Below, piece after piece: positions 54,546 to 60,982 of a DNA stretch of 64,000 nt. Within the stretch, counting starts at the first letter, position 1; every line of letters starts with the position of its first letter. A model generated the notes under the pieces. The model saw nothing but the letters and a program-made list of their open reading frames with translations, did no database searches and was not told the origin of the DNA. Made by a program: the position numbers and the translations under genes. Origin of the DNA: Phycisphaerae bacterium (lineage in GTDB: Bacteria; Planctomycetota; Phycisphaerae; UBA1845; UTPLA1); assembly GCA_023150615.1 (NCBI GenBank), contig JAKLKO010000003.1, positions 62,001 through 126,000 of the forward strand, in the 5' to 3' direction.

Positions 54546-54950
54546 ATTCCGATCGCGACGTGGATCGGCACGCTCTTGTGTCAACGCAGTCTATGAGCGG
54601 ACCGCGCGATGTCAACCCCGGCGCGGGTGCAGCGTGCCGTGCGTTCGCCGAGCAGAATTCTTCGCACCCCGCCCGCTTCGGCGCTGCGCCACCGGATCGC
54701 GTCGATCGTCGCGGGCGGATCGGTGCGTGTCGGTTGGACGGGTTGCACGCGTCGCAACGGCCGAAACGGAGCCGCCCGATTCGCGTAAACCCGACTCGGG
54801 CAACGTGCGTATAATCAATCGAGGACGAAAGTAATGCGATCCGGGAGCCTCGACCCGGCCCGCGAAATAGTCATAACTTGCTGATAATAAACAGCTTATG
54901 GAATATGGCAAAAACTGCTGGACTCAAGTTCCGCTTCGGTCGATAGTTAC

Positions 54951-54978
54951 TTGATAGTAGCGAAGAGCGCTATAATAA
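54951..54978 (+). promoter_or_regulatory. Promoter of the candidate small RNA
   Basis: TATAAT is at 54971-54976. TTGATA at 54951-54956 is 14 bases away, short for sigma70, but 16 bases from the overlapping TAATAA at 54973. The exact pair is uncertain. Confidence 0.5.
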
Positions 54979-54982
54979 TGCT

Positions 54983-55119
54983 AAGAACGGCGATCGAAGG
55001 CCGTCTGATTCATACGGAGGTTCATACGCGGCTCGCGTGACGCGAGCATCAAACAACGGCTTCTTTCCCCTCCGGAAAGCACTAGGATTGCCCTTGAGGC
55101 TCCTGGTGCTTTCTTTTTT
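54983..55119 (+). ncRNA. Candidate small regulatory RNA
   Basis: Expected transcript of about 137 bases from the TATAAT at 54971 to the terminator. Visible structure: an 8-base direct repeat TTCATACG (55009 and 55021), a helix CGGAGG (55015-55020) with CCTCCG (55069-55074) enclosing the perfect hairpin GCTCGCG-TGA-CGCGAGC (55031-55047), a pyrimidine-rich single strand (55061-55073), and the terminator. The CCCCTCC could base-pair with Shine-Dalgarno sequences. A 20-codon frame from ATG 54978 overlaps it but starts almost at the -10, so it is unlikely to be translated. It matches no RNA family I know. Confidence 0.5.
55075..55119 (+). terminator. Rho-independent terminator
   Basis: A 12-bp stem with one G-U pair (55075-55086 with 55102-55113), a 15-base loop and then TTTTTT. 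It is directional: no T-run exists on the minus strand. Confidence 0.85.
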
Positions 55120-55241
55120 GTCCTCGACTCGCACACTTCGCTCCGGCGCAAACCTCGATCGCTGAACACTCAAGTCCGTTTATTCCGCGTAGAGCAGTTG
55201 TTTCGATTCTAAGGGTCGATGGGAAGTTCGGCGCCGCCCGA

Positions 55242-57107
55242 CTAGTTCGCCGCCGGCTTCTCGCGCCCCAATTCCGATGCGCGACTCTGCTGATCCGGCG
55301 GCGCGCCGCCCACGCCCGCAAGCAGATCGGGGAATCGCGCGATCACCGAATTCGGCGGTGCGATCGCCGCCGCGCGCCGGAGGTTCGCCAGTCCGACGTC
55401 GTGCAGCCCGGAGTAATACTCGAGATATCCGAGCAGGAATCGCAGTTCACACGACTCCGACCGGCTGAGCTGCGTTTCGAGATCGGCGCGGCGGAGATCG
55501 AACACGTCCTTCTGCCCGATCAGCGAGACGAGATCAAGCCGGAACGCCGCGATGTCCGGGAAGCGCGCGATGCCGCGCACGAGGTGGTGCACCGCCGACA
55601 TGTATTCGCCCGCGGCCGCCAGCGCGTGGCCCTGGCCCAGCAGCGGCAGCGGGTTCTTCGGATCGATCGTGGCCGCGAGCGAGAAGCGGCTCGCCGCGCG
55701 GTAGTTCTGCCCGACGTGCAGCGCCTCCTCCGCCTCGCGGAGATAGCGGTTCAGCGGATCCCCCCCCGCGCCCGCGAACGTCGTCACCGGCCGCTCCAGC
55801 ATCTCGCGCGCCCAGCGCGCGGCGCGATCCAGGCGCTCGGCGAAGCGGGCCTGCTCGCTGTCGCGCACGTAGCCGTCGCGACCCGTCGCGGACATCTGCG
55901 CCGTTTTCGCCAGCGATGACAGAACCGATTCATCCTTCGCGGCGCCGGGCTGCGGCACAGACGGACCTTCCGGCGCTCCCGGTTGCGGAGGCGTCGGCGC
56001 CGCCGGCGCGCCCGGATCGGCCGATGGAGCCGCCGGCGCTGCGCCGATCGGCGGCAGGAATCGCCGGAAATCCGGCTCGATCGCCGAGGCCTCTCGGACC
56101 GCGGCGAGCAGATCGTCAAACGTGCTCACGCCGCGCTGCGGAGCGGCCTCGGCGGCCGTCGGCGGCGTCACGGTCGCGGCCGGCGTCGTCACAATCTCGC
56201 GCGCCGCCATGCCCGGGCCCGTCGGCGCCGCAGTCGTTGCCCCCGGCTCCGTCGGAAGCGCCGGAGGCTGCGCCGGCGAGCGCACCGCCGGCACGTCGCC
56301 CACGCGGGCCGAATACCGCGGCTGCGTCACGTCGCCGACCGGCACGATCGGCGGCCGATTCGGCCCGAACAGCGGCGACATCATCGCGTTGTTGTACGCC
56401 GAGTCGGCCGCGCTGCCGCCGGCCGTCGCGCCGAGCGGCGCGGTCGGGACCACGGCGCGCTGTCCGGTTCCGAACCGCGGCGCGGTCATCGAGTCGAGCG
56501 GCTGCACGCGACGATCGACCGGATCGTTGATGCCCGTCGGCAGCGGCGTCGGTCGAATGCCGACGGCCGACGGCGTCGCCAGCGACGTGTAGGGCGTCAT
56601 CAGCGTCGGCGAACCCGGGCGATTCAGCCCCTGCCGCAGCGCGCCGACGTTGAGCACCGTGTCCGACGTGCTGTAGTACGGATTCGTCTGGAACATGTTC
56701 TGACCGCCGCCCGCCCCCGGAAGGCTGTCGCTCACGCCGTAGCTGCGACGATCGAAGTACGACAGGTCGGCCGACGGAAGCGATGCGCCGAAGCGGTTCG
56801 GATCGCTCACGAGCGTGCTGCCCAGGCCCGAGATGCCCGTCGTGTTGAACGGATTCGCGACGCCGAACGGCGACGACGAGTGAAACCCGCCCAGGCCGGT
56901 CACGTTGCCCGTCACGATCGCGTTTGCGCTGTTGATCAGCGTGTAGTCCTGCCGCGCCGTGTTGAAGCCGCCCGAGCCGAGCAGCCGGTTCGAATCCCGC
57001 GCATGGCCCGGCAGCGGCCGGCCGGGCTGCACGCGATGATCGACCTGTGCAAGCGCGGACGTCGAAAAAAGCAGAGCGAGCGCAAGCGTGATTCGTGCGG
57101 AGGACAT
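55242..57107 (-). CDS. Exported proline-rich protein with C-terminal TPR-like repeats
   Basis: A 621-residue protein. The signal peptide is ITLALALLFSTSALA, cleaved before QVDHR. The N-terminal 200 residues are rich in Asn, Gly, Ser and Tyr (FNTARQDYTLINSAN), then a long Pro/Ala/Thr-rich linker, and from about residue 430 a helical TPR-like domain (EAEEALHVGQNYRAASRFSLAATID, LGQGHALAAAGEYMSAVHHLVRGI). I do not recognise the family. TPR proteins of this build in planctomycetes are presumed periplasmic scaffolds. ATG 57107 has GGAGGAC immediately upstream and a TATAAT 78 bases before it. Confidence 0.7.
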   Translation of the reverse strand: MSSARITLALALLFSTSALAQVDHRVQPGRPLPGHARDSNRLLGSGGFNTARQDYTLINSANAIVTGNVTGLGGFHSSSPFGVANPFNTTGISGLGSTLVSDPNRFGASLPSADLSYFDRRSYGVSDSLPGAGGGQNMFQTNPYYSTSDTVLNVGALRQGLNRPGSPTLMTPYTSLATPSAVGIRPTPLPTGINDPVDRRVQPLDSMTAPRFGTGQRAVVPTAPLGATAGGSAADSAYNNAMMSPLFGPNRPPIVPVGDVTQPRYSARVGDVPAVRSPAQPPALPTEPGATTAAPTGPGMAAREIVTTPAATVTPPTAAEAAPQRGVSTFDDLLAAVREASAIEPDFRRFLPPIGAAPAAPSADPGAPAAPTPPQPGAPEGPSVPQPGAAKDESVLSSLAKTAQMSATGRDGYVRDSEQARFAERLDRAARWAREMLERPVTTFAGAGGDPLNRYLREAEEALHVGQNYRAASRFSLAATIDPKNPLPLLGQGHALAAAGEYMSAVHHLVRGIARFPDIAAFRLDLVSLIGQKDVFDLRRADLETQLSRSESCELRFLLGYLEYYSGLHDVGLANLRRAAAIAPPNSVIARFPDLLAGVGGAPPDQQSRASELGREKPAAN

Positions 57108-58666: not shown

Positions 58667-59554
58667 TCAGGACCGCCGACAGATCGGGCCGCGCATGCCC
58701 TTGCGGGCCAGCAGCACGCCAATCGAAAGCAGGGCCAGCGTGGAGGGGTCGGGCAGACCGCCGCGGGCCTCGATCCGCAGGTCGGGATGGTCGCTGCGGA
58801 TCCCGCCCCAGTCGTAGGTAAACGGGTAGAAGCCGCCGAGCGGGTGCTCCCACGTGTGCGTCTGGCCGTCGGTGTAGAGCGACGATGTATCCTCGCCGCC
58901 CATGCTGTCCCAGCCGAAGGCCGTGCCGACCTGGTAGCCGTAGTCCGAATCATTACAGGCGAGCGCCGCCCACTGCGGCAATTCTAAGTAAAGGTCAACG
59001 AAGCCGTCGCCGTTGTCGAATAGCGCGCCGGCCGCCTTGCTCAACGACCCGAAGAACAGCAGGAAGATCGGCCCTTCCGGATGGCTTACGTCGGGCACGG
59101 ACGTCAGCGGAAGGCCCTCGGCCGTCTGATACCAGCGCCCGCCCCGACCGGCGTACGCACTCGCATCCGAGACGATGGGGTGGTCCAAGCCCCAACGGCC
59201 GTTCGGGTTGTACACATCCAGCGTTCCGGCGACATTGACCTGGTCGTCCCCCGCCCACAGGTCAAGATCGCCGCCGCCGAGCGCCCACGGGACCAGCGGC
59301 CCGCCCGGCCAGCTCGGAACGACTGGCGGGATCGCGGCGAGGTTGAGCTGGACCCAGATCTGGATGGGGATCTCGGCCGCATCGGCATTCGCGCCGCTGA
59401 TGTACGGGATGACCTTGCTCGTGGCCGCCGCATACGCGTCCTGCGCGCCGGGCTGGGCCAGCGGGCTGGTGATGAAGAAGCGGGCCTGGGCCGCGAGGGC
59501 CGGGGCGCTCAACACAAGGGCCAGAAACGCCGCGAATCGCAGTGGCGTCGACAT
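58667..59554 (-). CDS. PEP-CTERM exported protein (paralogue 1)
   Basis: A 295-residue protein. A signal peptide ends at ALAAQARFF. The mature part is a single domain sharing blocks with the next gene upstream: RFF-TSPLAQP, ISGAN, IP-IW-Q, GPIFL-F-G, SKA-G, GEDTSSLYTDG and DLRIEA. The tail is LPDPSTLALLSIGVLLARKGM, a PEP-CTERM-like signal with PDP in place of PEP, a hydrophobic segment and basic residues. Such tails are recognised by exosortase, which is not in the window. AAGGAG sits just before ATG 59554. The function of the domain is unknown; the family is probably surface-associated. Confidence 0.78.
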   Translation of the reverse strand: MSTPLRFAAFLALVLSAPALAAQARFFITSPLAQPGAQDAYAAATSKVIPYISGANADAAEIPIQIWVQLNLAAIPPVVPSWPGGPLVPWALGGGDLDLWAGDDQVNVAGTLDVYNPNGRWGLDHPIVSDASAYAGRGGRWYQTAEGLPLTSVPDVSHPEGPIFLLFFGSLSKAAGALFDNGDGFVDLYLELPQWAALACNDSDYGYQVGTAFGWDSMGGEDTSSLYTDGQTHTWEHPLGGFYPFTYDWGGIRSDHPDLRIEARGGLPDPSTLALLSIGVLLARKGMRGPICRRS

Positions 59555-59841
59555 GGGTGTGCTCCTTGCCGGTCCGGGGGACGGGCGACCGGCCGCGCGC
59601 GCCGCCGCGACCGCCCGCGCCTTCCTCACGTCGTCATAGACCCGAAACGCGGGGGGATCTTACAGTGGAATCCGGAAAAAAGAGGCCGGCGGCCGGAGGC
59701 TGGAGGGATCGGCAAGGCAAAGCGGGGGTGGAGGCCGAAACACGCGAAGGACAAAACGCCGAAACGCGAGCGCCCTCCCGTTGCGCGGGGCGGGGGTGGG
59801 GTTGGGGGGACAAAGTGGGAGCTTCGTCCTACCCGGTCGGA

Positions 59842-59863
59842 CTGGACCCCGGATCAGGTCCAG
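59842..59863. repeat. REP-like inverted repeat
   Basis: CTGGACC (59842-59848) pairs with GGTCCAG (59857-59863) around CCGGATCA. The wording resembles short palindromes that are abundant between genes in some alphaproteobacteria, recalled from memory. Only one copy was noticed in the window. Confidence 0.4.
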
Positions 59864-59924
59864 GGTGACGGAGGCATGCAGGCGGCTGGGCTCGGGATCG
59901 GGCCCGAGGGAACGGAAGAAAGCT

Positions 59925-59963
59925 GAAAAAAGAAGCGGCCGGGTGGGGTTGCCACCCGGCCGC
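59925..59963 (-). terminator. Rho-independent terminator of the PEP-CTERM paralogue 2 gene
   Basis: A perfect 12-bp stem (59935-59946 with 59952-59963) with a five-base loop. On the minus strand it is followed by TTCTTTTTTC. It lies 32 bases after the stop at 59996. Confidence 0.88.
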
Positions 59964-59995
59964 GGGGATTGACCCAAGTACCGTCGCAGACGCGT

Positions 59996-60841
59996 TTAGC
60001 GGCGGCGGCGGATGAAGAGACCGGCGAGTCCAAGCAGGGCCATCGTGGCAGGTTCCGGGGCCTCGATGCGGAGGTCCGGATTATCGCTGCGGAGATCGCC
60101 CGCGCCGAAGGTGATACCGTAGTAGCCGCCGTTCGGATGCGGGATCGTCGGGGTTACGCCGTCCGTATAGAGCGACGAGGTATCCTCACCACCGGCGTTC
60201 CAGCCGAACACGATGCCGGCCGCGAAGAAGTTCGCCGAATCGTTGTTGCCCATCGCGGCACCGTCCGGCAGCGACAGGAAGACGTCGAAGAAGCCATCGC
60301 CCGGATCGGGGAGCTGGCCCAGCGCCTTGCTGATGTTGCCCGAGAACATGAGGAAGATCGGGCCTTCGGCATGCGCCACGTCGCCGGCCGTGGTCTTCGG
60401 CAGACCCGCCGCGTTCGGATCCCAGCGGCCACCCAAGGCGACTGCAGGTCCTGCCGCGGCCACCATTGTGAATCCACCGGCCCAGCGACCGCCCGGGTTG
60501 TTGAGCGGCCAGCCGCCGGCCGCGGCATTGGCGTCGTTGTTGTCCCCGTAGGCGTCGAGGTTGCCGCCGTACTGTGACCACGTCGTAGGCTGGCCGGTAC
60601 CCGGATCGACGTCCGGCGTATTGGCCGTCACGATCTGCATCCAGATCGAGATGGGGATCGTGTCCAGCAGGGCGTTCGCGCCGCTAATGACCGGGTTCTC
60701 CTTGTTCGTCGCGGCGGCCGCCGCCGTCTGGGCGTTCGGCTGAGCCAGCGGGCTCGTCATGAAGAACCGCAACTCGGCCGCGTTGGCGAGCGTTGCCAGC
60801 CCGACAATCACAATCGCAGCCAGTCCAAATCGCTGCTTCAT
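59996..60841 (-). CDS. PEP-CTERM exported protein (paralogue 2)
   Basis: A 281-residue protein. The signal peptide is FGLAAIVIVGLATLANA. The mature domain is clearly related to the 58667-59554 product through most of its length (LRFFMTSPLAQPNAQ, ENPVISGANA, GEDTSSLYTDGV, LRSDNPDLRIEAPE). It ends with a classical PEP-CTERM tail, APEPATMALLGLAGLFIRRRR. AAGGAG precedes ATG 60841. It has its own promoter (60983-61011) and terminator, so it is a single-gene transcript. The pair is a local gene duplication that has diverged substantially. Confidence 0.85.
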   Translation of the reverse strand: MKQRFGLAAIVIVGLATLANAAELRFFMTSPLAQPNAQTAAAAATNKENPVISGANALLDTIPISIWMQIVTANTPDVDPGTGQPTTWSQYGGNLDAYGDNNDANAAAGGWPLNNPGGRWAGGFTMVAAAGPAVALGGRWDPNAAGLPKTTAGDVAHAEGPIFLMFSGNISKALGQLPDPGDGFFDVFLSLPDGAAMGNNDSANFFAAGIVFGWNAGGEDTSSLYTDGVTPTIPHPNGGYYGITFGAGDLRSDNPDLRIEAPEPATMALLGLAGLFIRRRR

Positions 60842-60982
60842 ATACACACTCCTTCTCAAAAGCTCCCGATTTTCCTGGACTCGCCTGCTTCCGCCCCTCC
60901 ATTCAGAACCGGGAGCGAATCAGGCCCGTGTTATCAATCGCTCAGTTCAGACCATTCCGGCCCGAAACCCCTAAGCGATTCT

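Follow-up and report, generated by a model that had tools for sequence, protein, structure and literature searches.

Comparison among genomes indicates that the small RNA predicted in the analyzed window (a stretch of 64,000 nucleotides from a Phycisphaerae bacterium) belongs to a real and previously unlisted RNA family, ordinary in kind, which is spread over the class Phycisphaerae. Conservation, invisible to a reader of the sequence alone, is the decisive evidence for the predicted RNA gene. The recurring unit is the last 62 bases of the RNA (55058–55119), which read GGCUUCUUUCCCCUCCGGAAAGCAC-hairpin-GUGCUUUC-U6. In a DNA search, this 3′ part was matched in 58 of 61 related genomes, including all 47 good ones, and the source genome carries three copies. 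The first-pass annotation, made from the sequence of the window, had described the RNA as an orphan. This description fails, since genomes in the order of the source organism carry between one and three copies, or more, and those of other orders about one.

Extent of the RNA family

A pattern scan was run on a single genome from each species; together with the copies from the relatives, it yielded 109 distinct usable copies, nearly all of them in records labelled Phycisphaerae, Phycisphaerales or Planctomycetota. Furthermore, a covariance model built on the core and the terminator was run on 248 Phycisphaerae genomes and matched 135. All listed members of the order but one were positive, often with two or three copies, and so were about 77 genomes from other orders, where a single copy of a diverged form is the usual case. 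No family in Rfam 15 matched positions 54780–55260 at the gathering threshold or at E ≤ 10, in line with the earlier statement that the locus fits no recognized RNA family, and a search with 14 family loci returned tRNA matches only. The covariance model of 6S RNA (RF00013) matched neither the window locus nor any of these 14 loci.

Several matches were set aside. The 20-mer also gave matches in Bacteroidota, Firmicutes and others, and those that were read look like ABC-ATPase genes, the reverse strand fitting the codons of the SGGE signature. Because of this resemblance, matches without a terminator were dropped, and one remaining stray match (L098) was removed by hand. Covariance-model matches outside the class were left uncounted: in those that were read (L160–L162 and L167) the core was absent, and in L163–L166 the terminator part alone matched. 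A clear copy of the RNA is located behind lpxA in a record labelled Alphaproteobacteria (L092); since its genomic context is like that of Phycisphaerae, the taxon label or the bin may be wrong.

The locus in the window

The RNA locus lies in an A/T-rich island with a G+C content of 46–55%, compared to about 65–75% in the surroundings, and the flanking genes and the tRNA-Arg gene are all on the minus strand. Both observations agree with the first-pass annotation, and its proposal that the plus strand encodes a small RNA with a promoter and a terminator of its own was supported. The elements it had listed are present (Table 1): the TATAAT, the perfect 7-bp hairpin, which lies between the strands of a possible helix of CGGAGG and CCTCCG (55069–55074), a pyrimidine-rich stretch that could pair with Shine-Dalgarno sequences, and a textbook terminator, which folds as claimed with the stem 55075–55087/55101–55113 followed by T6. 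The terminator (55075–55119) was recovered by the fold and was not listed by the consensus scanner.

Table 1. Features of the predicted small RNA locus (window coordinates)
Feature	Position	Strand	Remarks
GTCGATA box, sigma-28/WhiG −10-like	54939–54945	+	no good −35 in the window copy
−35-like TTGATA	54951–54956	+	TTGATA-17-AATAAT, 10 of 12 consensus positions
−10 TATAAT	54971–54976	+	alternative reading AATAAT, 54974–54979
Predicted small RNA, about 135–138 nt	54983–55119	+	promoter to terminator; start approximate, inferred from the −10
5′ hairpin ACGGC/GCCGT	54987–55004	+	based on the fold alone
TCAT-AC-GGAGG element	55010–55020	+	CGGAGG (55015–55020) is the 5′ strand of the CCTCCG helix
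Perfect 7-bp hairpin GCTCGCG-TGA-CGCGAGC	55031–55047	+	fold; sequence unconserved in relatives
Family core, C/U-rich GGCUUCUUUCCCCUCC, proposed antisense seed	55058–55073	+	near-invariant in 109 copies of the order
Strand a, CTTTCC	55063–55068	+	possible alternative hairpin with GGAAAG (55074–55079); weak
Terminator stem-loop GAAAGCACTAGGA / TCCTGGTGCTTTC	55075–55113	+	covariation
Terminator U tract	55114–55119	+	sequence; T-run kept in relatives

The whole transcript folded better than shuffled sequences (z = −3.1; 1 of 200 as good), but its 5′ part without the terminator did not (z = −1.2; 26 of 200 as good). The excess is thus that of the terminator, and fold energy by itself shows little beyond it. 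A longer transcript of 299 nt from a TATAAT at 54810 (z = −2.7) was disfavored because this hexamer is at no fixed place in the orthologues.

Conservation of the core and the terminator

In each family member, a C/U-rich stretch (GGCUUCUUUCCCCUCC in the order of the source organism) directly precedes an intrinsic terminator starting with GGAAAGC. Across the 109 copies of the order this stretch is nearly invariant, although the search pattern by which they were gathered prescribed part of it; in the other orders, from which the copies were obtained with the covariance model, it reads ..UUUCUCCCCUCC, as (A/G/C)UUUUCUCCCCUCC or CUUUCUCCCCUCC. The stretch is near-fixed while the adjoining stem and the 5′ part drift.

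The terminator stem showed covariation. We counted 54 double-change cells in the order (13 in shuffles) and 45 in the class-wide set (12.6 in shuffles), and in both cases none of 500 shuffles reached the observed number. In the order set, 48 G-U cells and 11 A-C cells were found in this stem; the ratio is reversed on the opposite strand, and therefore the plus strand is the paired one. The length of the terminator loop varies by single bases among the copies, which, together with the lack of a fixed minus-strand start codon, argues against a coding reading. The hairpins stressed in the first-pass annotation are not the part that the family keeps: the 7-bp hairpin has a sequence found in the source genome only, and the CGGAGG/CCTCCG helix is typical of two paralogue groups. 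Conservation instead covers the C/U stretch joined to the terminator, together with upstream promoter elements.

Strand b of the terminator, which occurs as GGAAAGC, GGAGAGC, GGAAAAC or GGAAGAC, adjoins the C/U stretch and could form a hairpin of 5–6 bp with it. In most lineages strands a and b change together (CUUUC/GAAAG versus UUUUC/GAAAA, a C-G to U-A replacement). Since the pairing is broken in two of the five f15 copies, we regard the alternative a-b hairpin as a weak candidate. In mnmE-linked copies (L028, L032, L043, L047 and others), GGAGAGC faces GCCCUC, and an A-C mismatch is kept in many of them. One change could repair this mismatch, yet it is retained, and strand b of these copies seems to be held by something besides the stem.

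Genomic neighborhood and the upstream GGAGG element

The window copy is syntenic in its group (mqnE, tRNA-Arg, TPR gene), the RNA being convergent with the TPR gene. Of 12 relatives, 11 have a tRNA-Arg(gcg) gene adjoining the TPR-group copy; next to the RNA, an mqnE-like protein was recognized in at least five. According to the first-pass annotation, loss of the helices in relatives with syntenic mqnE and tRNA-Arg would speak against the RNA; in these relatives the locus and the terminator helix are kept, and GGAGG is kept in 10 of 13 orthologues.

Other copies are located behind nrdJ (37 copies), mnmE or lpxA. Because many stand behind genes of the same strand, some may be mere elaborate terminators. 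A second copy in the source genome (L002 1501–1563, corresponding to C3:24382–24444) lies approximately 95 nt past the stop codon of the B12-dependent ribonucleotide reductase gene nrdJ and has no clear promoter of its own; this copy is possibly a 3′-UTR-derived RNA.

GGAGG was present no more than 90 nt upstream in 35 of the 50 copies of the TPR and nrdJ groups, compared to 8.8% of background windows, and CCTCC was present in none of these 50 regions (within 90 nt). The enrichment of the former and the absence of the latter suggest that the GGAGG/CCTCC helix is probably real in these two groups. The more extended TCAT-N1-4-GGAGG was detected in 22 of 111 upstream regions and in 0.2% of the background, an about hundredfold enrichment. 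Most mnmE-linked copies do not have the upstream GGAGG, nor do the short copies in other orders. Hence, the CGGAGG/CCTCCG helix noted at first reading is typical of the TPR and nrdJ paralogue groups, but it is not family-wide. The energy of the intramolecular duplex between the upstream region and the seed was barely more favorable than that of shuffled sequences; counting the word GGAGG provides the better test of this pairing.

Promoters and sigma factors

The TTGATA-17-AATAAT site of the window copy stands out against an expectation of 0.2 promoter-like sites per whole kilobase. Counted from CTTTCC, 12 of 13 syntenic orthologues have a −10-like hexamer at −84 to −98, either TATAAT or a sequence that differs from it by one base; among 20-nt background windows, about 0.1% contain TATAAT itself. 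In addition, 9 of these 13 orthologues have [CT]CGATA at −120 to −124 by the same count, and G[CT]CGATA is present in 50 of 111 upstream regions, compared to 3.1% of background windows. In three families of other orders (f94, f14 and f10), 15 of 17 copies are preceded by TAAAG-N16-GNCGA[TA], which was found in 1 of 1,396 background windows. The spacing is 16 in 14 of these 15 copies, the motif lies 23–47 nt 5′ of the CCCUCC core, and the predicted RNA is about 75–100 nt long. The motif resembles a sigma-28/WhiG-type promoter.

A sigma factor of the FliA/WhiG type is encoded in 13 of 13 relatives and in 59 of the 62 class genomes tested. A link to motility was considered and rejected: the RNA and the promoter motif are kept in flagellin-less genomes (e.g., G397 and G434), and a flagellar sigma factor is not required. 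For the same reason, the sigma that would read the sigma-28-like promoter is more plausibly a WhiG-like factor of a non-flagellar kind.

The flagellin genes of the group (L176–L180, L182, L183, L185, L196 and L201) have a common upstream GAAAG-N15-CCCGATA, which is likely their sigma-28 promoter. In several genomes, csrA is directly 5′ of a flagellin gene. A strong FliA/WhiG-type sigma (about 220–267 bits) is retained in flagellin-less genomes, and a second one (about 190–218 bits) is found mainly in flagellin-bearing genomes.

Proposed function and alternatives

With moderate confidence, we favor the view that the RNA is a trans-acting, Hfq-independent small RNA with a CCCCUCC seed that blocks ribosome-binding sites. 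The RNA would be transcribed from the plus strand (54983–55119), the window copy from sigma-70-type promoters and the copies of other orders presumably from sigma-28/WhiG-type ones. Its anti-Shine-Dalgarno-like CCCCUCC would pair with several mRNAs at their ribosome-binding sites and block translation without Hfq. In the paralogue present in the window and in the nrdJ-linked group, the upstream GGAGG may mask the seed inside the RNA. Genome comparison establishes the family, its strand, the predicted terminator structure and the conserved promoter motifs; the antisense mechanism is suggested by the fixed, CCCCUCC-bearing C/U stretch amid drifting stems, a pattern typical of Shine-Dalgarno-blocking small RNAs. 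The 13-nt complements of the seed (DGGAGGGGAAAGA) occurred 31 times in 61 genomes, compared to 12 times for the reversed control. Among 30 such sites that were read, one alone precedes a start codon, and a search covering extended 13-nt matches revealed no long conserved complements in ribosome-binding sites.

It is equally conceivable that the fixed C/U stretch is bound by a protein. The RNA might then serve not as an antisense regulator but as a decoy or substrate, either for CsrA or for some unknown protein with an affinity for C/U-rich RNA. Of 13 genomes (source genome and 12 relatives), 12 encode CsrA and none was found to encode Hfq, GGAGG with an A shortly 5′ of it resembles CsrA sites, and near-fixation of the stretch also suits protein binding. 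However, CsrA decoy RNAs have many GGA motifs in loops, whereas the RNA described here has one or two, in stems, and no upstream GGAGG accompanies the short copies in other orders. We consider this explanation unlikely. Rather less probable is a cis-acting element in which a competing CUUUCC/GGAAAG hairpin decides on read-through of the terminator into the next gene. Strand b is indeed pairable with a or c, strand a covaries with b and c in most lineages, and the location of many copies behind nrdJ, mnmE or lpxA would fit, but the 6-bp hairpin is much weaker than the 12-bp terminator, many copies have their own promoters, and what lies downstream varies from copy to copy and, as at the window locus, is often convergent. 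The broken pairing in the two f15 copies also speaks against it.

We give similarly little credence to an RNA that binds the ribosome or mimics the anti-Shine-Dalgarno tail of the 16S rRNA and thus tunes translation generally instead of acting on chosen mRNAs. CCCCUCC is like this tail, and two groups harbor GGAGG and CCUCC in one RNA; yet a general effect needs no CUUCUUU extension, and this extension is also conserved. Finally, the minus strand of the locus folds at z = −4.9 and its GGAGGGG looks like a Shine-Dalgarno sequence, which could point to a conserved minus-strand transcript with GGAGGGGAAAGAAGCC as a ribosome-binding site or structured leader. This is very improbable in view of the terminator T-run and the promoters, which indicate the plus strand, the G-U count (48 cells on the plus strand versus 11 on the minus strand), and the lack, in all 109 copies, of a start codon at a fixed minus-strand distance.

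Comparison with known small RNAs

RsaE-type C-rich small RNAs of Firmicutes are short and block Shine-Dalgarno sequences with a UCCC-rich single strand; Rfam shows no homology of the Phycisphaerae RNA to them, and promoter and structure differ. In the cyanobacterial Yfr1, the motif is an unpaired pyrimidine-rich stretch. Yfr1 is almost universal in its phylum and very short, with a fixed motif (PMC6778093). The Phycisphaerae RNA is likewise widespread and short with a fixed motif, but motif and structure are different and there is no Rfam match.

The alphaproteobacterial alpha-r14 ("cuckoo") small RNAs, such as NfeR1, act in trans, and their pairing with ribosome-binding sites was tested; CCUCCUCCC stands unpaired in each of their three hairpins (PMC10746234). 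The Phycisphaerae RNA is similar in being short and group-wide, with a C/U-rich anti-Shine-Dalgarno motif that stays the same among its members while the stems vary in sequence. In contrast to alpha-r14, it has a single UUUC(U)CCCCUCC against the terminator instead of three CCUCCUCCC hairpins, shares no sequence with these RNAs and belongs to a different phylum. The sigma-28-dependent small RNAs UhpU, MotR, FliX and FlgO of Escherichia coli are UTR-derived and belong to an organism with Hfq (PMC10578931). The Phycisphaerae RNA resembles them in its apparent sigma-28-type promoter, seen in three families of other orders (the window copy has a −10-like GTCGATA but no good −35), and in the linkage of some copies to 3′ ends of genes; unlike in E. 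coli, Hfq was not found, the RNA is also present in flagellin-less genomes, and there is no common sequence.

No small RNA described for the class Phycisphaerae was found in Rfam or the open literature. The notable points are the spread of the RNA over a whole class without detectable Hfq and its promoter type. A class-wide family of this kind, with a promoter type pointing to one sigma factor, offers a handle on posttranscriptional control in Planctomycetota, and the covariance model built here would annotate the RNA in well over a hundred genomes. A WhiG-like sigma is encoded in nearly all class genomes tested, flagellated or not. As a tentative and rather doubtful extension, the RNA could be part of a class-wide, Hfq-free regulon in which a WhiG-like sigma drives the RNA, which in turn represses mRNAs by anti-Shine-Dalgarno pairing at a change of lifestyle or cell cycle, and which would have been duplicated and GGAGG-locked in one order.

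Elsewhere in the window, the minus strand at 58667–60859 encodes two adjacent paralogous secreted proteins with PEP-CTERM-like tails (EAPEPATMALLGLAGLFIRRRR in one of them).
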